Origin: Chitinophaga pinensis
GTDB taxonomy: Bacteria > Bacteroidota > Bacteroidia > UKL13-3
DNA length: 64,000 nucleotides
Assembly (NCBI GenBank): GCA_945860865.1
Contig: CAMARW010000001.1
Span: 262,154 to 326,153 of the forward strand
Direction: 5' to 3'
A model generated the notes under the pieces. The model did no database searches. It was not told where the DNA came from and worked only from the letters and a program-made list of their open reading frames with translations. Position numbers and translations under genes: made by a program. Shown piece after piece: positions 14,090 through 30,083 of this stretch (position 1 is the first letter of the stretch; each line of letters opens with the position of its first letter).

Positions 14090-15220
14090 TTAATCTATAA
14101 AATCTAAATAATTATCCTGAGTAATCACTTCAAAACTGGCATCTGGATATGATTTAGCAAACTCACTAGGAATTTTGGCTGGGTTTTTCCCCCATTTGTA
14201 TTCGAAGGCAGATAGTTTTCCATTTCTTTCTTCAATTCGGTCTATCTCTTGTTTGGTATGGGTTCGCCAGAAATATTCGAAGTGGACAATTTCTTGGTGG
14301 GCAAGTTTTTTTCTTCTTTCGCTGTTTAAATAGTTTTCCCAAATTTTGCCTGTATCGTCACGTAAACTTATCGGACTAAATGCGTTGACAATAGCGTTTC
14401 TTATGCCATTATCTACAAAGTACCACTTCTTCATTTTAGTAATTTCATTGTCACGATTTCTACTAAATCCTTGTACTGGGTAAATTATAAATACTTTGGT
14501 AAATAGGTCTAAGTATTTTTCTACTGTGTTTTTGCTTATTTGCAGGTCTCTTCCAACGCTTTCTAACGATATTTCACTTCCTACCCTAAAGGCTAAAATT
14601 TGTAACAGACTCACAATTTTTTCTCTTTTCTTTATTCCTTCAAAAGATAAAATATCCCGCAATAAATGATTGTTTACAATTTCTTTTAAATAGCTTATTT
14701 TCTCGTCTCTATTGATTATTTCTGTAAGTTCAGGATAAGACCCAAATATCAATCGTTCCGCTAAGTTACTTTTGGTCTGAACCAAATTTTCGGTTTTAGC
14801 AAACTCCATCTGGGAAATAGGGTAGAGATGTATGGTCTTCATTCTTCCAACCAAAGGCTCACCTGTTTGGTTATTGAGTTCAAATGCTGATGAACCGCTT
14901 ATTATAATTTTCAAATCGCTAATGGTGTCTACCATTAATTTTAACTTTTTACCAATATTGGGTATCTCTTGCGCTTCATCTATAACTAATAATTTAACAT
15001 CCCCAAGCAAACGTTGGTAGTTTAGTATACTTTGGTTTTCTAGCAAGGTATGACTATCCATATCATCGCCATTTAAGAAAATATATGTTTCTTTTGTTTT
15101 TGAAAGGAAGTGCTCAAGTAGTTTGGTTTTGCCAACCCTTCGAGCACCCAAAATTACCACCACCTTATTGGGCTTAAGGTATTTGTTTATCAAGTTTTCT
15201 GTCTGTCTTTCAATTGCCAT
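14090..15220 (-). CDS. AAA_14/DUF4143 ATPase, copy 1
   Basis: 376 residues from the ATG at 15220. The N-terminal P-loop ATPase has Walker A GARRVGKT (25-32) and Walker B LLVIDEAQ (77-84) with a sensor-like IISGSSAFEL. A DUF4143 domain follows, ending in a restriction-endonuclease-like pattern (EIDRIEE then AFEYKWGK, i.e. E..D..ExK). These proteins are common and scattered in bacteria and archaea; their role is not established, though mobile or stress-related functions have been suggested. The gene is isolated among housekeeping genes. 32-bp tandem repeats with palindromic cores lie just upstream and a heptamer repeat just downstream. It is not closely similar to the copy at 24.8-26.0 kb beyond shared domains. 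Confidence 0.85.
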   Translation of the reverse strand: MAIERQTENLINKYLKPNKVVVILGARRVGKTKLLEHFLSKTKETYIFLNGDDMDSHTLLENQSILNYQRLLGDVKLLVIDEAQEIPNIGKKLKLMVDTISDLKIIISGSSAFELNNQTGEPLVGRMKTIHLYPISQMEFAKTENLVQTKSNLAERLIFGSYPELTEIINRDEKISYLKEIVNNHLLRDILSFEGIKKREKIVSLLQILAFRVGSEISLESVGRDLQISKNTVEKYLDLFTKVFIIYPVQGFSRNRDNEITKMKKWYFVDNGIRNAIVNAFSPISLRDDTGKIWENYLNSERRKKLAHQEIVHFEYFWRTHTKQEIDRIEERNGKLSAFEYKWGKNPAKIPSEFAKSYPDASFEVITQDNYLDFID

Positions 15221-18892: not shown

Positions 18893-19246
18893 ATGTTTAA
18901 ATTTGAAAATTTAGCGGTTTGGAGGAAGTCAATTGAATTAATTGGTTTTATTGATTTTGTGGTAAAGAAATTTCCCAAAGATGAAGTCTATGTGCTAAGT
19001 TCTCAAATTAAAAGAGCCTCAGATTCTGTCGCTTTGAATATTGCAGAAGGGTCGCAAGGACAATCAAACCCGGAGTTTTCAAAATTTGTTGGATATGCCA
19101 TTAGGTCTGCCATCGAAGTTGTTTGTTGCATACATATTGCCAAAACAAGAGAGATTATTAGTAAAGAGGATTTTGATAAAATATATGAAGATTGTGAGGT
19201 TTTAATCAAAATGTTACAATCATTAAGAATAACATTAAATAAGTAA
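18893..19246 (+). CDS. Four-helix bundle protein (S23/IVS family)
   Basis: 117 residues. MFKFENLAVWRKSIELIGFIDFVVKKFPKDEVYVLSSQIKRASDSVALNIAEGSQG is the standard N-terminus of the 23S-rRNA-intervening-sequence (S23) four-helix bundle family, including the SVALNIAEG helix. Members sit in rRNA intervening sequences, as accessory proteins (Avd) of diversity-generating retroelements, or as lone genes of unknown role; they tend to bind nucleic acid. Here the gene separates the two parts of metH and is flanked by inverted 29-bp repeats 7 and 8 bp away. No reverse transcriptase or variable repeat is present, so it is not a DGR. Confidence 0.9.
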   Translation: MFKFENLAVWRKSIELIGFIDFVVKKFPKDEVYVLSSQIKRASDSVALNIAEGSQGQSNPEFSKFVGYAIRSAIEVVCCIHIAKTREIISKEDFDKIYEDCEVLIKMLQSLRITLNK

Positions 19247-21977: not shown

Positions 21978-22017
21978 TTGCCCTAAATGTTTATTTTTGA
22001 TTAAATATTTAGGGCAA
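21978..22017 (+). promoter_or_regulatory. 16-bp stem-loop covering the translation start of the next gene
   Basis: Arms 21978-21993 and 22002-22017 pair over 16 bp with one G-U or mismatch position and an 8-base T-rich loop. The right arm ends on the A of the ATG at 22017, so the hairpin would occupy the whole ribosome-binding region. No T-run follows, which argues against an ordinary terminator. Confidence 0.6.
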
Positions 22018-24746
22018 TGCTTAAAAAATTAATAACCGTTTCTGCTATAATACTTCTTTTCTTTTTCGGTTTGAACCAAACCTTTTTTTCGAAGTCTTCG
22101 CATTCCATAGATGGCATGACGATGAATTTAAAGGCGCGATTAAAGGCGATGGTAAAAATGTATGCCGATCCTTCATTGGGAACCATTCCGCCCAATATAC
22201 GCGCTTTAGAATTGGCTTATGCCAATACCTTACCTACAGATTTTTCTCAAAATAAATTTGCTACTTGGCAGTCTATTGGTCCGTACAATGTGGGTGGCAG
22301 AACCCGAGTATTAGCCATTGATATTTTAGATAAAGAGGTGTTAATTGCTGGCGCTGCAACAGGTGGCATCTGGCGCAGTACAAATGGCGGTATTTCTTGG
22401 TATCTAACCCAAATGAAAGACGCCCCAACAGCCAATATTACCAGTTTGGTTCAGGATAAAAGAAAAGGAAAAGAAAAAACTTGGTATGCCTCCACCGGCG
22501 AATTATATGGCGGCAGTTTGCCGGGTGCTTTTTACAATGGTAGCGGCGTGTATAAATCTACAGATGGCGGAGATACTTGGATTAAAACAGGCAATCTAAA
22601 CACTGGTTTGGGCGGCCTATCGGGTGCTTGGTCTGTAATTCATAGAATAGCCCTGAACCAAACCATTGATAGCATAGATGTAGTATTTGCAGCCAATTTT
22701 GATGGCATTTTTAGAAGCATCAATGGGGGTGCCACTTGGACAAAAGTGCGTGGTGGAAATTCGCAGGCTACAAGTTATAGTTATTTTACAGATGTGGCTG
22801 TTTCGCCCAAGGGTTTTGTATTTGCATCGCTTTCTGGTGGTGGCCAACACCAAGGAATTTGGCGCTCTGCTGATAATGGGAGAAACTGGATAAACATTTC
22901 TCCTGATAGTTTTCAATCTACTTGGGATAGAATTGCCATCGGCATAGCACCATCAGATGAAAATCAAGTGTATTTTGTGGCACATACTCCTGGGATCGGA
23001 AAAGAAAGTAAAACCTTTGAAGGAAGAAGCGAGTACAATAGTTTGTGGAAGTACACTTATGTAAGTGGAGATGGCAGCGGAGCAGGCGGAACTTGGAGTG
23101 ATAGGTCAGCAAATATTCCGGTTAACAATGAGATTTTTGGTAGTTATATTTCGCAGGGTGGTTATTGTTTAGAGGTAAACGTAAAGCCAGATGATGCCAA
23201 TACAGTGTTTTTAAGTGGAACCAATTTGTACCGATCAACGGATGGGTTCAGCACAAAAAATAATACGCTAATGATGGGCGGATATGGCGTGGGAACTACC
23301 CTTCCCGATTTTCAATTATATCCCAAACATCACCCTGATTGTCATGCTGTAGTTTTTTACCCCGATGATGTTAACCGCATGATTTCTGTGCACGATGGCG
23401 GTATTTCGCGTACGCAGAATTGTTTGGCGAGCAATGTTACTTGGGAGTATTTAAACAACGGCTATGTAACTACTCAATTTTATACCATTACCCAAGATGC
23501 TGCCAGTACCAGCAAGTTTACGGTGGGTGGTACACAAGACAATGGTACCTATGCATGTTTAGCGCCAGATGCTAGAAAAGAATGGTATATGCCTTTAAGT
23601 TATGATGGTTCGTATTGTTATGTAAAACCAGGCGGAGGCGAGGTGTATTTATCTATTCAACAAGGTAGAATGCACCGCATGATTCTAGATGCAGAGGGTA
23701 AGGCAACACAATATACGCGGATTGACCCAAAAGGAGTTGATAAAAACATTTATGAATTTATAAATCCGTTTACGCCAGATGCCAATAATTTTAAGGTGCT
23801 TTATACACCAGCTCAAACAGTAATTTGGCGTAATAGCGATATTACTGCCATTCCATTAAAAAGCAAATTAGATAGTAATGCAAGTAATATTAATTGGGTA
23901 GAATTAAGCAATACCCGCCTAACAGTTGCGGGAGATGAAATAACCTCTATTTTTAGCTCCAAGTCTCAAAACGATGTATTGTATTATGGCACACGCCGAG
24001 GCAGATTATTTAGGCTAAGCAATGCATCCAATACAAGTAGTGTTCCTGCTTTAATAAGTGGCACTAATTTCCCAAGTGCCTATTTGCATTGCATTACACA
24101 AGACCCAACAGATTCTGCTCGCATGTTTGTGGTGTTTACCAATTATGGTGTACACAGTTTATTTGAAACCAAAGATGCCGGACTAACTTGGCAGCCCATT
24201 GGAGGTAACTTAGAGCAAACGTCTACGGGCGGTGGTAATGGTCCGAGTTGTAGGTGGTTTACCATTGCACCAACCCAAGATAGTTTGGTATATTTTGTAG
24301 GTACAAGTACGGGTTTATATGCCACTAAAAAGATAGATGGCATGCAAACGGTATGGACCCGCCAAGGTGCTTCAACCATTGGTATGCAACCCGTAACCAT
24401 GATGCACCACAGAACCACAGATGGTAGAATGGTAGTGTCTACTTATGGTTCTGGTGTATTTGAATCGTATGTTAATTCGTTAAATCCAACTACCAGTATA
24501 AAAGAAAATAAGTTAAATGATTTTGTAGTTTATCCAAACCCAACATCCAATTATATTTGGCTAAAAGGCTTATCTAATGAAACAAATATTCGCTTCGAAA
24601 TCTACAACTTACAAGGAGCAAAAGTAAAGCAAGGCAATATCGTTTCTAATGAAGGAATTGATGTACAAGAATTGCTAGAAGGAATGTATATATTAAAACT
24701 GCAGATGCATGGAAATTGGCTTTCAAAAACCATTAGTATAAAATAA
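22017..24746 (+). CDS. Secreted beta-propeller (BNR/VPS10-like) protein with T9SS sorting domain
   Basis: 909 residues with an N-terminal signal peptide or anchor (MLKKLITVSAIILLFFFGL). It carries many Asp-box/BNR-type units: IWRSTNGGISWYL, VYKSTDGGDTWIK, IFRSINGGATWTK, IWRSADNGRNWIN, LFETKDAGLTWQPI. The C-terminus is a type A T9SS sorting domain (FVVYPNPTSNYIWLKG through GMYILKLQMHGNWLSKTISIK). It fits the large sialidase-like propeller proteins of Bacteroidota. The Asp boxes are structural, so glycosidase activity is not implied. The stop codon abuts the first 47-bp palindrome. Confidence 0.85.
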   Translation: MLKKLITVSAIILLFFFGLNQTFFSKSSHSIDGMTMNLKARLKAMVKMYADPSLGTIPPNIRALELAYANTLPTDFSQNKFATWQSIGPYNVGGRTRVLAIDILDKEVLIAGAATGGIWRSTNGGISWYLTQMKDAPTANITSLVQDKRKGKEKTWYASTGELYGGSLPGAFYNGSGVYKSTDGGDTWIKTGNLNTGLGGLSGAWSVIHRIALNQTIDSIDVVFAANFDGIFRSINGGATWTKVRGGNSQATSYSYFTDVAVSPKGFVFASLSGGGQHQGIWRSADNGRNWINISPDSFQSTWDRIAIGIAPSDENQVYFVAHTPGIGKESKTFEGRSEYNSLWKYTYVSGDGSGAGGTWSDRSANIPVNNEIFGSYISQGGYCLEVNVKPDDANTVFLSGTNLYRSTDGFSTKNNTLMMGGYGVGTTLPDFQLYPKHHPDCHAVVFYPDDVNRMISVHDGGISRTQNCLASNVTWEYLNNGYVTTQFYTITQDAASTSKFTVGGTQDNGTYACLAPDARKEWYMPLSYDGSYCYVKPGGGEVYLSIQQGRMHRMILDAEGKATQYTRIDPKGVDKNIYEFINPFTPDANNFKVLYTPAQTVIWRNSDITAIPLKSKLDSNASNINWVELSNTRLTVAGDEITSIFSSKSQNDVLYYGTRRGRLFRLSNASNTSSVPALISGTNFPSAYLHCITQDPTDSARMFVVFTNYGVHSLFETKDAGLTWQPIGGNLEQTSTGGGNGPSCRWFTIAPTQDSLVYFVGTSTGLYATKKIDGMQTVWTRQGASTIGMQPVTMMHHRTTDGRMVVSTYGSGVFESYVNSLNPTTSIKENKLNDFVVYPNPTSNYIWLKGLSNETNIRFEIYNLQGAKVKQGNIVSNEGIDVQELLEGMYILKLQMHGNWLSKTISIK

Positions 24747-24793
24747 ATTATCCCCGAAAATCGGAAGTTTAACTTCCGATTTTCGGGGATAAT
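24747..24793. repeat. 47-bp palindrome, left flank of AAA/DUF4143 copy 2
   Basis: A perfect palindrome with 23-bp arms around a single central base; the arms begin ATTATCCCCGAAAATCGG and the match extends two more A/T pairs outward. It touches the stop of the propeller gene and ends 6 bp from the stop of the ATPase gene. A second copy at 25996 has an identical right arm. Confidence 0.92.
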
Positions 24794-24799
24794 TTCTGC

Positions 24800-25981
24800 T
24801 TATCCGCATATTTTACTGAGTTTAATTTCTAAGAAGTTTCTGAGGCCAATAGAAAAAATATCTTTACTAAGCGGCCATTCTTCTTCGTCTCCTGGCGTAA
24901 TGATATAGTTGTATTTTGTGTTTAATTCTTTGATACTTTCGGTGTATCCTTTACTCAATTTTGGTTTTTCTGAGTATTTAATTTCTATGCTGGCCAAAGG
25001 GGTTATTCCTTTAACAAGAATGAGGTCAATTTCTGCGCCATCATGTGTTCTAAAATAGTATGGCTGAACCGAGTTTGGAAGCAACGAAATGATTTGTTCT
25101 ATTACATATCCTTCCCACGAATAACCCAATTGTGGATGGTATTGAAGGTTTTTGGCGTGTTGTATATCTAAGAGGTAATGCAATAGCCCACTGTCTCTGA
25201 TATAGACTTTCGGACTCTTAACCAATCTCTTGGAGGTGTTTTTATGGTAAGGCATTAGCTTGCGCACCATAAACGCACCTTGCAGGTAATCTAAGTAATG
25301 ATTTACGGTTTTAGCACTTACATCCAAGCCTTTTGAGAACGATTGTGCGTTCCAAATGCCACCATGATGATGGGCAAGCATACGCCAAAGTTTAAACATC
25401 AACTGCGGCGAAAAGCTAATGCCAAATAATAGGTTCAAGTCTCTTTCTATAAAGGTACGTGCAAAGCCATCCACCCACAATAAAAAGGCTTCGTCTGTTT
25501 TGGCTTTCCAAGCATCTGGAAAGCCTCCTCTAAACCAATGTTTTTGCAATGTGCCCGTTTTATTTGGCAGCTCAATAAGTAATAATGGCGTGGCTTCAAT
25601 ATAGTAGATTCTTCCTGCTAGTGATTCTGAACTGTCTTTCATTAAGGCTGGGCTTGCCGAACCTAATAACAAAAAACGACCTGTTTTTCTCTTTTTATCT
25701 ATAAGCGAGCGCATAATTGGAAATAACTCGGGCATACGTTGCACTTCATCAATGATAACTTGGTCGTTTTGATGTGCAGCTAAAAATAACTCTGGATTCT
25801 CAAATTTGCGAATGTCTTGCGGACTTTCTAAATCGAAGTAAACGCCATTTTTAGCAGCAATTTTCTTTTGGATTTGCTTGGCTAATGTGGTTTTGCCACA
25901 TTGCCTTGGGCCAATTAATCCAACAGCTGGAAATTGCTTGAGTACTTTTTCTATCTTTTTCTCTATTATCCTCGTTATCAT
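24800..25981 (-). CDS. AAA_14/DUF4143 ATPase, copy 2
   Basis: 393 residues. The P-loop ATPase domain has Walker A GPRQCGKT (about 24-31) and Walker B VIIDEVQ (about 76-82), followed by LLLGSASPALM. The DUF4143 domain ends in a restriction-endonuclease-like motif, HDGAEIDLILVKG then ASIEIKYSEKP (D..ExK). As in copy 1, this suggests an ATPase joined to a nuclease-type fold, with activity unproven. It is opposite in direction to its neighbours and enclosed by two copies of a 47-bp palindrome, 6 bp beyond its stop and 14 bp before its start. The whole 24747-26042 unit looks inserted between the propeller gene and asnS. Confidence 0.88.
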   Translation of the reverse strand: MITRIIEKKIEKVLKQFPAVGLIGPRQCGKTTLAKQIQKKIAAKNGVYFDLESPQDIRKFENPELFLAAHQNDQVIIDEVQRMPELFPIMRSLIDKKRKTGRFLLLGSASPALMKDSSESLAGRIYYIEATPLLLIELPNKTGTLQKHWFRGGFPDAWKAKTDEAFLLWVDGFARTFIERDLNLLFGISFSPQLMFKLWRMLAHHHGGIWNAQSFSKGLDVSAKTVNHYLDYLQGAFMVRKLMPYHKNTSKRLVKSPKVYIRDSGLLHYLLDIQHAKNLQYHPQLGYSWEGYVIEQIISLLPNSVQPYYFRTHDGAEIDLILVKGITPLASIEIKYSEKPKLSKGYTESIKELNTKYNYIITPGDEEEWPLSKDIFSIGLRNFLEIKLSKICG

Positions 25982-25995
25982 TTTACAAAGATAAA

Positions 25996-26042
25996 ATTAT
26001 CCCCGAAATATAGAAGTATAACTTCCGATTTTCGGGGATAAT
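25996..26042. repeat. 47-bp palindrome, right flank of AAA/DUF4143 copy 2
   Basis: Second copy of the 24747 palindrome. Its right arm is identical over 23 bases; its left arm differs at five positions, four of them clustered (about 26009-26012), so it is an imperfect hairpin. It lies in the promoter region of the ATPase gene. Confidence 0.9.
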
Positions 26043-26118
26043 TTATTTTTTTATAATCTTTTCAATGGGGTTTGGCTACTAATGCGCTACTATTTTCTTC
26101 ACTTTACATTGCTTTTTT

Positions 26119-26126
26119 ATCTTTGT
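26119..26126 (+). promoter_or_regulatory. Candidate -7 element for asnS
   Basis: TATCTTTG matches the Bacteroidota TAnnTTTG element, 59 bp before the preferred GTG start of asnS. No well-spaced -33 element is evident. Confidence 0.35.
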
Positions 26127-26184
26127 GTTGCGGCTTCTTATGGTTATTTTTGCCAATCAGATTTTAATAGTAAAAGTATTCATT

Positions 26185-27708
26185 GTGCAAAAATATTTAA
26201 TAAAAGACCTTGCAGATTATGAAGGTCAGGTTGTCACCTTATTAGGTTGGGCCAGCAACAAGCGCGAAAGTAAAGGTTTGGTTTTTGTTGTTTTACGCGA
26301 TGGTACGGGTTGGTGCCAATGTGTAATTAGTTCAGATACTATTGGCGAAGCTCTTTTTGAAGAGGCGCGTAAAATTACCCTGGAAGCTTCTGTTTCTTTA
26401 ACAGGTTTGGTAGTGAAAGACGAGCGCCAAATGGGTGGTTTTGAATTGCAAGTAAATGCCCTTGAAATAATAGGCGAATCTCCAGATTATCCCATAGCCA
26501 AAAAAGAACATGGCGTAGATTTTTTAATGGATAAACGTCATCTTTGGCTTCGCAGTCAGCGCCAGTGGGCCATCATGCGTATACGTAACAAGATTATTTT
26601 TTCTATTCATGAGTTCTTTCAATCAAAAGGATTTGTGCAAATGGACGCGCCACTCTTTACGGGCAATGCCTGCGAGGGAACAAGCAATTTGTTTGAAACC
26701 GACTTTTACGGCGATCCCGCTTATTTAAGTCAGAGCGGACAATTATACGGTGAGGCTATGGCCATGACATTGGGTAAGATTTATACATTCGGACCAACCT
26801 TTCGTGCCGAGAAATCGAAAACCCGCAGGCATTTAAGTGAGTTCTGGATGATTGAACCAGAAATGGCCTTCTATGATATTTTTGATAACATGGATTTAAT
26901 CGAAGATTTCTTGCGCAGTGTGGTTACAGCCGTGTTGGGTTCTTGCGAGAAAGAATTGGCTATTATTGGAAGAGATACCGAGGTTTTAAAGAATATTATT
27001 AAGCCATTTCCGCGTTTAACCTACGACGAAGCGGTGCGCATTATCAAAGGGGAACAAGATGTAAACGGCCAAAATTCTATTGTTTCGCTAGAGAATGAAT
27101 TAAAAGCAGTTCAGGAGCGTATAGGTTTGGTTCAGACCGAAATTGCCGAGCGCGAAGCCAAGATAAAGGTGCCGGGAATGAAAAAGGGTGAAATTGGCTT
27201 TAACCAAGCGCAAATAGATAAGTTGAAACAAGAGCTAGGCGATTTGCAAGAGCAGGAAAGAAATATTCCGCAGTGGCTAAACAGTGCGCGTAATTTTGAA
27301 TATGGCAACGATTTGGGTGGTAGTGATGAAACCGTAATTACGCGTTTATTTGATGTGCCTATTATGGTTTATAATTGGCCACATGAAGTGAAGGCTTTCT
27401 ACTTAAAGCGCGACCCTGAAAATAGTAAATTTGCGCGTGGGGTGGATGTTTTGGCGCCAGAAGGCTACGGCGAAATTGTGGGTGGAGGTGAACGTGAAAC
27501 CAACGAGCAATTGTTAATTTCAAAAATAAATGAGCACCAATTGCCTATGGAAGCTTTTGAATGGTACCTAGATTTAAGAAGATACGGAACAGTGCCGCAT
27601 GCAGGTTTTGGTTTAGGTTTGGAACGTCTCGTTACATGGCTTTGTAAATTGCCTCACGTGCGCGAAAGTATTCCGTTTCCAAGAATGTATGGAAGGCTAC
27701 TGCCTTAA
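26185..27708 (+). CDS. asnS: Asparaginyl-tRNA synthetase with coiled-coil insertion
   Basis: Class II synthetase charging tRNA-Asn. It has an N-terminal OB-fold (VVTLLGWASNKRESKGLVFV), motif 2 FRAEKSKTRRHLSEFW (about 207-222) and motif 3 HAGFGLGLERLVTWL (about 472-486). The GTG at 26185 gives MQKYLIKDL, which aligns with the family N-terminus; an ATG at 26140 would add 15 residues. Between LTYDEAVRIIKGE and NFEYGNDLGGSDE lies an insert of roughly 75 residues (about 292-368) rich in Glu, Gln, Lys and Leu, predicted as a helical hairpin or coiled coil. The 507 residues exceed the usual 430-480. Confidence 0.92.
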   Translation: MQKYLIKDLADYEGQVVTLLGWASNKRESKGLVFVVLRDGTGWCQCVISSDTIGEALFEEARKITLEASVSLTGLVVKDERQMGGFELQVNALEIIGESPDYPIAKKEHGVDFLMDKRHLWLRSQRQWAIMRIRNKIIFSIHEFFQSKGFVQMDAPLFTGNACEGTSNLFETDFYGDPAYLSQSGQLYGEAMAMTLGKIYTFGPTFRAEKSKTRRHLSEFWMIEPEMAFYDIFDNMDLIEDFLRSVVTAVLGSCEKELAIIGRDTEVLKNIIKPFPRLTYDEAVRIIKGEQDVNGQNSIVSLENELKAVQERIGLVQTEIAEREAKIKVPGMKKGEIGFNQAQIDKLKQELGDLQEQERNIPQWLNSARNFEYGNDLGGSDETVITRLFDVPIMVYNWPHEVKAFYLKRDPENSKFARGVDVLAPEGYGEIVGGGERETNEQLLISKINEHQLPMEAFEWYLDLRRYGTVPHAGFGLGLERLVTWLCKLPHVRESIPFPRMYGRLLP

Positions 27709-29038: not shown

Positions 29039-30083
29039 AAAAATTTCCTGTGTTTATTTGTGTATGAAAACTGCCTCTTAATTGACCTAATAAATTGTAC
29101 CTAAATACCTCACTTTTTTGCACAAAATCTTTGGCATCCGATACTAAAATTTCTTTGTTGTAGGGCTCATAACCTAAGGTATAAAAGTTTTTACCTCCTG
29201 CGGTAATAAGGGCTTGGTTCGGCAATAGCGTATCGTTTACAGATAGGGTATACACGTCTTTGTTGATCCAAAATAACTGATTTTTTTGTTCGTTTATTTC
29301 TAATCTGCGGGGCATATCTATGTTTTTAAACCAAAGTTGTAAGGCTATTTTTCCAGCGGCATTAATCTTGGTTAAACAAGGCAAAATGGGAGCTTTGCCA
29401 TTGCTTAGTACCCAAATATTATTAGCCAAATCTTTACGCATATACTGGGCACCAAAGCCAATTTCTAGACTGTCTTCTAGTTGATCGTTTGCAGTATTTA
29501 TAACATAAACATACGGCGATTCTACGCCACAAACAAAAGCTTTGTTGTTTACTAAAACCATTTCTTCTGTCCAACCTTTGCAGTTAATTTTGCCACTAAT
29601 TTGCTGCGTGTTTAGGTTCAGAACGTATACAGCATTTTCATATAAATCGCTTACATATGCCTTTTGTGTATTCACTGGCAGAAAGTACCTGGGCGAGTTA
29701 AAGCCTGTTATGGTGTGTATTTCTTTCCAATTTTTTGCGTTGAGTACGCTTATTTTTTGTGAGTTGTTTACTACCAAATAGAGTTTGTCTTGAAAGCTAC
29801 AAATAGATTGCAGTACATCACCAATTCCTTTTCCATTGTTGGCTTTATAAATATCGGTTTGAACCAAACCACTTGCTGGATTGTAAAAACTTAAACTGGC
29901 ATTTCCCCATTGAAAATTTCCTTCGTTGGCTATAAACATACCCACCAAATTGCTGTCGGGCATTTGGGGTGTTTCTGCTATTATTTGCTCAGGCGTTTTA
30001 TCGCATGAAGCCATCATAAGGAGGCTAACTACAAGCCACTGCAAGCCCTTTATCTTTGTGAAAATGCCAGTTAAGTTTTGCAT
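29022..30083 (-). CDS. BtuG-like surface beta-propeller lipoprotein (YncE/DUF5074 type)
   Basis: 353 residues with a lipoprotein signal (lipobox region LLMMASC, Cys at about 27). Repeated propeller blades of the YncE/DUF5074 kind follow: LYLVVNNSQKISVLNAKNWK, KAYVSDLYENAVYVLNLNTQQ, PYVYVINTANDQLEDS. In Bacteroides, BtuG is a DUF5074-like propeller lipoprotein that captures cobalamin at the cell surface and passes it to BtuB. This copy lies in an operon behind a cobalamin riboswitch and a BtuB-like receptor, which supports the same role. The assignment is by family and context, not by visible ligand residues. Confidence 0.75.
   Translation of the reverse strand: MQNLTGIFTKIKGLQWLVVSLLMMASCDKTPEQIIAETPQMPDSNLVGMFIANEGNFQWGNASLSFYNPASGLVQTDIYKANNGKGIGDVLQSICSFQDKLYLVVNNSQKISVLNAKNWKEIHTITGFNSPRYFLPVNTQKAYVSDLYENAVYVLNLNTQQISGKINCKGWTEEMVLVNNKAFVCGVESPYVYVINTANDQLEDSLEIGFGAQYMRKDLANNIWVLSNGKAPILPCLTKINAAGKIALQLWFKNIDMPRRLEINEQKNQLFWINKDVYTLSVNDTLLPNQALITAGGKNFYTLGYEPYNKEILVSDAKDFVQKSEVFRYNLLGQLRGSFHTQINTGNFYAKQP

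Follow-up and report, generated by a model that had tools for sequence, protein, structure and literature searches.

Why should the gene for an AAA/DUF4143 ATPase be bounded on both sides by copies of the same long palindrome, one just past its stop codon and the other just ahead of its start? The locus lies on contig 1 of a 2.59-Mb genome (G000), which its nearest named relatives suggest to be one of Bacteroidota, within the window (the whole stretch of DNA that was analysed, 64,000 nucleotides), and its features are the following.

22017-24746, + strand: left neighbour, a secreted-protein gene
24745-24795, no strand: left (downstream) palindrome, with 25-nt arms that are 100% complementary and a 1-nt centre
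24800-25981, - strand: ATPase gene, 393 aa (AAA_14 and DUF4143; PADLOC PDC-S01)
Residues 18-136 of the ATPase, - strand: AAA_14 (Pfam)
Residues 179-337 of the ATPase, - strand: DUF4143 (Pfam)
24977-25114, - strand: codons 290-335, holding the PD-(D/E)xK residues E290, E317, D319, E333, and K335
25040-25045, - strand: codons 313-314, the nuclease-fold turn between strands 305-312 and 317-324 (from the structural model and covariation)
25310-25345, - strand: codons 213-224, from the start of the first helix-turn-helix (HTH)-type helix (212-219) to the N terminus of the presumed recognition helix (223-235) (from the structural model and covariation)
25986-25993, - strand: -7-like box TATCTTTG, 4 bp ahead of the ATG, fitting the Bacteroidota pattern TAnnTTTG
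25994-26044, no strand: right (upstream) palindrome, 90% identical to the left copy
26125-27708, + strand: right neighbour, a tRNA synthetase gene (class II [D, K, and N] match), which we read as asparaginyl-tRNA synthetase (asnS)

The left palindrome begins 4 bp past the ATPase stop, overlaps the stop codon of the secreted-protein gene, and is terminator-like on both strands between the two converging genes; a 12-bp gap separates the right palindrome from the ATPase start codon. The initial annotation had described a unit opposite in direction to its neighbours and abutting the preceding stop, with 47-bp palindrome cores lying 6 bp beyond the stop and 14 bp before the start, and all of this is borne out. 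It had also described identical right arms and one decayed left arm; the outer (right) arm of the right copy is indeed the same 25 nt as in the left copy, and its inner (left) arm is altered mid-arm, at about positions 7 to 9 from the dyad, so that positions 5, 6, 13, and 16 are equal on both arms and positions 7 and 8 differ. Folded as single-stranded DNA, the left palindrome reaches -26.4 kcal/mol (z of -10.3; 0/200 shuffles) and the right -16.4 kcal/mol (z of -6.0; 0/200 shuffles). With up to 3 mismatches allowed, the 23-nt half-palindrome had no copy in the 2.59-Mb genome beyond these two, and a genome-wide repeat was rejected on that count. The pairing of palindromes around the ATPase gene is thus confirmed and goes beyond chance.

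Pfam assigned the product to AAA_14 (95.2 bits; cut-off, 27) and DUF4143 (140.1 bits; cut-off, 28.1), and its matches were confined to AAA, STAND-type, and DUF4143 families, with no transposase, recombinase, or HUH domain among them. Seven PADLOC models for PDC-S01 were matched (best E value of 1.8e-86, in rows that carry no cut-off); matches in NCBIfam and PHROGs were weak and all to other ATPases or kinases. In an AlphaFold2 model (mean pLDDT of 90.4), helices 212-219 and 223-235 are arranged as in an HTH, and strands 305-312, 317-324, and 327-334 form a nuclease-like sheet. Its best structural matches are the archaeal ATPases PABY2304 (2qen; Z of 16.7, rmsd of 2.9 over 247 residues) and SSO1545 (2fna; Z of 15.8, rmsd of 3.0 over 248 residues), both spanning model residues 1-272 with the nuclease fold outside them. 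STAND proteins of plants and animals come next (for STAND clades, see PMC8195603); the PDB matches as a group cover mainly residues 1-305. By sequence, solved structures gave five matches, four to P-loop stretches and one of 2fna to residues 8-92. The C-terminal motif that had been called nuclease-like (EID...EIK) belongs to a set of PD-(D/E)xK residues that are intact in the window protein, as are Walker A and B, and near-invariant among homologs: K30, D78, E79, E290, E317, and K335 are kept in 151 of 151, D319 in 149, and E333 in 148.

An upstream palindrome recurs across the family. With starts set by script from the position of the P-loop, a palindrome scoring at least 10 was present within 110 nt upstream of the start at 36 of 80 named loci versus 9 of 409 other ORFs, at 19 of 29 ATPase loci in a Bacteroidota sample versus 0 of 50, and at 24 of 32 in the family versus 1 of 34. 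Of 151 homolog loci, 80 have 14 or more of 18 pairs in an upstream dyad, versus 1 of 512 other ORFs at the same loci, and 53 loci lack a dyad of 13 pairs; two further samples, from which 3 of 109 loci were dropped as unusable, have a dyad of at least 13 of 18 pairs upstream at 48 of 86 and 7 of 20 loci and downstream at 2 of 86 and 2 of 20. Several loci carry more than one such palindrome: two stand in tandem upstream of one homolog (L024, 2680-2772) and downstream of another (L023, 2673-2799), and the Algoriphagus loci L155, L158, and L162 have a second upstream palindrome that spans the start codon.

The consensus of the Bacteroidota -7 box is TAnnTTTG. Since the TATCTTTG box of the ATPase gene stands only 4 bp from the ATG, the transcript is predicted to be leaderless, and the upstream palindrome would cover the -33 region. 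The related pattern TAnnYTTG lies within 40 nt of the start at 39 of 44 family loci (Bacteroidota) versus 8 of 70 ORFs. Palindromes of Proteobacteria and others often hold a TTGnnn...YAnnnT promoter whose end is 4 to 9 nt ahead of the ATG, as in CCTTGCAAATC...CCATAATTGCAAGG-ATG, and the full pattern TTGnnn-N15-18-YAnnnT-N4-9-ATG was found at 31 of 80 named loci versus 10 of 447 ORFs. Five proteobacterial loci (L190, L199, L202, L203, and L208) have a near-consensus sigma-70 promoter within the palindrome that ends 7 nt before the ATG, which again implies a leaderless mRNA. From these motifs, the promoters of homologs are apparently leaderless, with the dyad covering the promoter.

Upstream and downstream cores were both selected for highest symmetry among the 37-mers lying within about 100 bp, so the pairing of their arms is by itself partly built in; covariation between protein residues and palindrome bases is not. 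We paired each of 18 dyad positions with each of 382 protein columns (6,876 pairs) and computed their mutual information, with average-product correction, over the 151 of 258 loci that had at least 13 of 18 pairs and proteins of 300 to 480 aa. The leading pairs were position 16 with D314 (z of 12.8), 6 with K224 (10.1), 5 with S222 (8.6), 7 with A223 (7.8), 13 with H313 (7.6), and 8 with Q213 (6.9). They form two patches, one joining recognition-helix residues 213, 222, 223, and 224 to inner positions 5 to 8 from the dyad, the other joining the turn at 313-314, three residues before E317, to outer positions 13 and 16; the strongest pair outside both reached a z of 4.6. Permuted data never gave a pair with a z above 6.7 (10 permutations) or 6.5 (60 permutations), and neighbouring 37-mers used as a control gave 5.2 and 5.9; pair 8-213 exceeds these values only narrowly, and the other five do so clearly. 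The signal was unchanged after thinning to 144 loci. In 10 random halves, 16-314, 6-224, 13-313, and 8-213 were among the top 8 every time, 5-222 in nine, and 7-223 in eight; 16-314 and 6-224 head the ranking in the named set (46 loci) as well as in the remaining 105, with 5-222 outside the top 12 of the former and 8-213 outside the top 12 of the latter.

The covarying letters amount to a code. Position 16 is A where residue 314 is Asn (31/33) or Gln (11/11), C where it is Asp (25/27), G where it is His (10/10), and T where it is Ala (21/22) or Thr (20/24), and over the covarying pairs Asn and Gln go with A, Asp with C, His and Lys with G, and Ala, Thr, and Val with T, in accord with the side chain-base contact preferences known from other proteins. 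Trained on the 46 named loci, the code predicted 820 of 1,086 letters in the 105 others (76%; permuted mean of 39%, maximum of 44%), and trained on those 105 it predicted 426 of 536 letters in the named set (79%; permuted 48%, maximum of 55%); on downstream palindromes it was right at 228 of 310 letters (74%). Four of the 258 loci are present twice, with identical proteins, one of them across both samples, so the test was repeated without the shared locus and with thinning, which lowered the accuracies from 76 and 79% to 69 to 78%. At less than 97, 70, 60, and 50% identity to the training proteins, they were 71, 70, 69, and 69% one way and 78, 77, 78, and 71% the other, with permuted means of 39 to 49% and maxima of at most 59%; at the lowest identity the counts were 222 of 322 from named to others (permuted 39%, maximum of 50%) and 99 of 140 from others to named (permuted 48%, maximum of 59%). 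The conclusion that protein and palindrome are linked by a code stands after thinning. Position 7 is poorly predicted (128/196 and 52/86, and 31/62 in downstream copies), prediction of position 13 fails for distant proteins (14/44), and in the window's own palindrome the code is right at 4 of 6 letters and wrong at positions 7 and 8. Twelve of the 34 named loci titled outside Bacteroidota and Ignavibacteria reach 13 of 18 pairs, and all 12 are among the 46 used for covariation, so the reach of the code across phyla rests on few loci. Covariation together with a predictive code makes it most likely that the product binds its own palindromes, and of the roles suggested by the initial annotation, that of a palindrome-binding enzyme is the one supported: the ATPase very probably recognises its own palindrome.

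Taken as a whole, we consider it probable that the gene encodes a STAND-like AAA ATPase whose winged HTH and PD-(D/E)xK fold bind the palindrome at its own promoter. The recognition helix would read half-sites 5 to 8 bp from the dyad, and the turn beside the nuclease active site would read those at 13 to 16 bp. Bound to the promoter dyad, the protein would repress or gate its leaderless promoter and limit its own synthesis until a trigger, such as an invader, displaced or activated it. Here we infer physical binding, autoregulation, the trigger, and use of the nuclease from patterns in sequence; the covariation is compatible with repression, activation, or cutting alike, since the same signal is expected from each. 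A more doubtful reading along the same lines makes the ATPase a site-specific nuclease that silences its gene from the promoter palindrome and, when triggered, cuts cognate palindromes, which would set off the presumed defence and drive clean loss or transfer of the unit. Specificity in that case would be set by about six residues, giving each clade a palindromic "language" of its own and leaving resident paralogs independent.

The second palindrome, past the stop codon, has a narrower distribution. Paralog L002 of the same genome (34% identical) also lies between two palindromes, of a sequence unrelated to that around the window's gene; the palindromes of the window protein and L002 are of the types CCGAAAAT and GACAAATACGG. 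Pattern scans of 64 family genomes for both types returned pairs around ATPase genes or single copies. For the second (clade 2) type, the ATPase was present at 21 of 21 fetched loci, three of them cut by contig ends. The 30 fetched loci of the first (clade 1) type comprise 18 with an ATPase gene, 1 with a remnant (G051), 8 gene-free leftovers (in one of them, L071, the arms are clearly imperfect), and 3 weak matches at three mismatches (L078, L079, and L084) that were treated as chance; the clade 1 scan gave another three-mismatch match, in G005, outside the fetched set. A backward control pattern matched one genome in the clade 1 scan and none in the clade 2 scan. Fetched leftovers number at most one per genome, with no multiplication. 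Pairs of similar palindromes number 27 in 152 homolog loci free of identical proteins (778 kb), and every one of them encloses the ATPase. The palindromes are therefore tied to the ATPase gene, as had been proposed, occurring as pairs or single leftovers in the 64 genomes and nowhere else in G000, rather than being scattered terminators. Two of the leftovers, L080 and L081, lie near position 1500 at one locus shared by two genomes of another genus; the palindrome is perfect in one, and a fumarase-like gene adjoins the L081 copy. Such leftovers can persist, perhaps as terminators.

A downstream palindrome scoring at least 10 was found at 23 of 31 family loci versus 2 of 21 other ORFs, at 12 of 79 named loci versus 15 of 363, and at 3 of 29 loci of the Bacteroidota sample versus 1 of 39. 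The downstream copy passes the 99% level of cross-locus similarity at 29 of 44 loci in the family, at 1 of 79 in the named set, and at 1 of 27 in the phylum set; the nearest named relatives (L137 to L141) have a weaker resemblance by eye, and the family paralogs L361 and L362 have the copy. The downstream copy is confined to few clades, and the pairing whose conservation across families the initial annotation had wished to see checked does not extend to most relatives beyond them, which have an upstream palindrome only or none that is strong. Paralogs L003, L004, and L005 of the same genome lack a clear pair. L003, a second DUF4143 ATPase in the window (14105-15211, - strand; 23% identical), has two tandem 32-bp repeats upstream, each with a short dyad CGTCAgttgatTGACG beside a TATCTTTG box, and is the same design in different letters, and L004 is flanked by 164-bp direct repeats (956-1119 and 2706-2869, 95% identical), possibly an alternative way to bound a gene. 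Elsewhere in the window, a gene for a 23S rRNA-intervening-sequence protein (18893-19246) has on either side an ORF that reads like one part of a split metH (methionine synthase).

Comparison of related genomes indicates how the gene is lost. Upstream of asnS (18 loci, with intergenic DNA read in part and G061 ending at a contig edge), the flanks in G046 and G026 are joined by exactly one palindrome, G043 has one palindrome and G002 half of one, and in G051 a 142-bp stretch combines the palindrome with some 90 bp from the 3' end of the ATPase gene. In another genus, the flanks of G005 (full) and G047 (empty) are about 95% identical, and those of G054 and G052 are shared at about 92%, which brings the one-palindrome empty sites to G046, G026, G043, G047, and G052. 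The single palindrome of G043 is a hybrid of the two copies in its sister G016, with a downstream-type left arm and an upstream-type right arm. Over the 45 pairs of ten full genomes, ATPase divergence equals that of asnS or exceeds it by up to about 8 points, and the ATPase and asnS trees agree in well-supported pairs; the gene is therefore old at the asnS locus, and the empty genomes lost it. This indicates loss in at least four independent lineages, provided that the full state is ancestral and with the second genus judged by flank identity, and it points to recombination between the two palindrome copies that left one behind, for which two 50-bp direct repeats would be enough. Insertion into a pre-existing palindrome is not needed, given the hybrid in G043 and an ATPase tree that follows asnS, and it keeps a slim chance at sites other than G043 and asnS. 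The locus thus varies among relatives, a point that had been put forward for checking, and the variation is loss leaving one palindrome.

The same data bear on the idea, unlikely in our judgment, of a slow mobile element whose ends or attachment sites are the palindromes and whose ATPase-nuclease would synapse, cut, excise, and reinsert the unit. Cognate sites do stand at both ends, and at loci with both cores (13 of 18 in clade 1 and 13 of 16 in clade 2) the two copies within a locus are more alike than copies between loci (permutation p of 1e-4 in both clades), the downstream copy being the best match of the upstream one in 11 of 13 clade 1 and 6 of 13 clade 2 loci. Clade 1 units also occupy loci that differ by genus, with the closest homologs beside asnS in the window's genus, polA in another, and a hutU-linked gene in further genera, among others (names from reading translations); the unit in G048 is on the opposite side of the hutU-side neighbour. 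The catalytic residues are kept (E290, E317, and K335 in 151/151 and D319 in 149/151), and 377 of 72,556 plasmid records carry homologs of less than 60% identity, as do, at 23 to 31% identity, 10 of 50,697 phage records. Against mobility, however, no clean palindrome-free empty site was found at the asnS loci, at 23 loci upstream of polA, or at 25 of 28 loci at the hutU-side neighbour (without L265 to L267 of G052); in G035 the palindrome is absent at polA, and the intergenic DNA is also shortened (100 bp versus 296 bp in G047). Copies have not multiplied, with at most one leftover per genome among fetched sites, clade 2 has the gene at all 21 fetched sites and no leftovers, Pfam gave no transposase or recombinase domain, and inheritance at asnS is vertical. 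The self-mobilising enzyme that the initial annotation had envisaged is not supported by these data: within the genus the gene descends vertically beside asnS, and its variability is loss.

It is quite improbable that the palindrome serves the nuclease domain as a DNA hairpin or cruciform to be recognised or cut, with symmetry kept for folding rather than for dimer binding. The best copies are symmetric through their centre and their variable positions and have strong hairpin energies, but the covarying positions form two short patches about 8 to 10 bp apart, like half-sites on one face of a duplex, the letters fit classic side chain-base contacts, and the centre pairs least well (0.54 at position 1). 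Ordinary bidirectional terminators flanking the gene by chance are highly unlikely, and for the right copy this reading was rejected. Only the left copy, terminator-like on both strands between converging genes, has a suitable position. The right one has a divergent start on either side, a place with no obvious job for a terminator and one where the initial annotation had likewise not expected it; it has upstream counterparts in homologs of several phyla that covary with their proteins, and it occurs nowhere else in the genome outside the pair.

Returning to a protein that binds its own promoter palindrome, in this clade a second cognate palindrome stands at the end of the gene, which gives the unit a long direct repeat on either side; by recombination between the two repeats the gene would be removed cleanly, with one palindrome left. 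The downstream copy itself may be a terminator, a second binding site for looping, or the end of a formerly mobile unit. A cognate DNA site and a residue-base code offer a concrete molecular handle, in the form of an exact oligonucleotide and exact residues, and the code makes the sites of the PDC-S01 family predictable and explains the clean gene loss in this clade.

PMC12988326 reports PDC-S01 as an ATPase fused to PD-(D/E)xK that ranks fourth in frequency among (candidate) defence systems of prokaryotes, at 29,494 cases in bacteria and 9,986 in archaea, most PDCs awaiting validation; its main text does not contain the string "palindrom." PDC-S01 is described as abundant in the rumen (PMC13356809), and an archaeal protein that joins an AAA+ ATPase to HTH and RecB nuclease domains has been listed as likely to act in defence (PMC4158269). 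The window protein shares with PDC-S01 both the profile match and the ATPase-PD-(D/E)xK fusion, and it adds a cis palindrome, a residue-base code, and two-ended units, none of which was found in the papers searched; full-text literature searches, their scope mostly outside subscription papers, likewise returned no link to palindromes.

Among better-known arrangements, a homing endonuclease gene splits its own site, whereas the element in the window does not, occupied loci having two whole sites and empty ones a single site. As with a transposable element, related units are found at different loci (asnS, polA, hutU, and others). The stem and T run of an intrinsic terminator at a transcript end fit the left copy, but the right copy is upstream of both flanking starts. 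With RAYT/REP systems, the window's gene has in common that it is single copy and lies between palindromes that are specific to the clade and matched to the protein it encodes; it differs in that its product has no HUH (Y1) transposase domain in Pfam and in that its palindromes are not scattered, with two copies in G000 and, apart from weak three-mismatch matches, a pair or one leftover per genome in the 64 genomes. Restriction controllers and antitoxins are autoregulated by a protein that binds a dyad at its own promoter, and the predicted binding of a dyad at the promoter of the ATPase gene resembles this, except that here the binder would be a STAND-like ATPase in which the nuclease fold seemingly joins in reading the bases.
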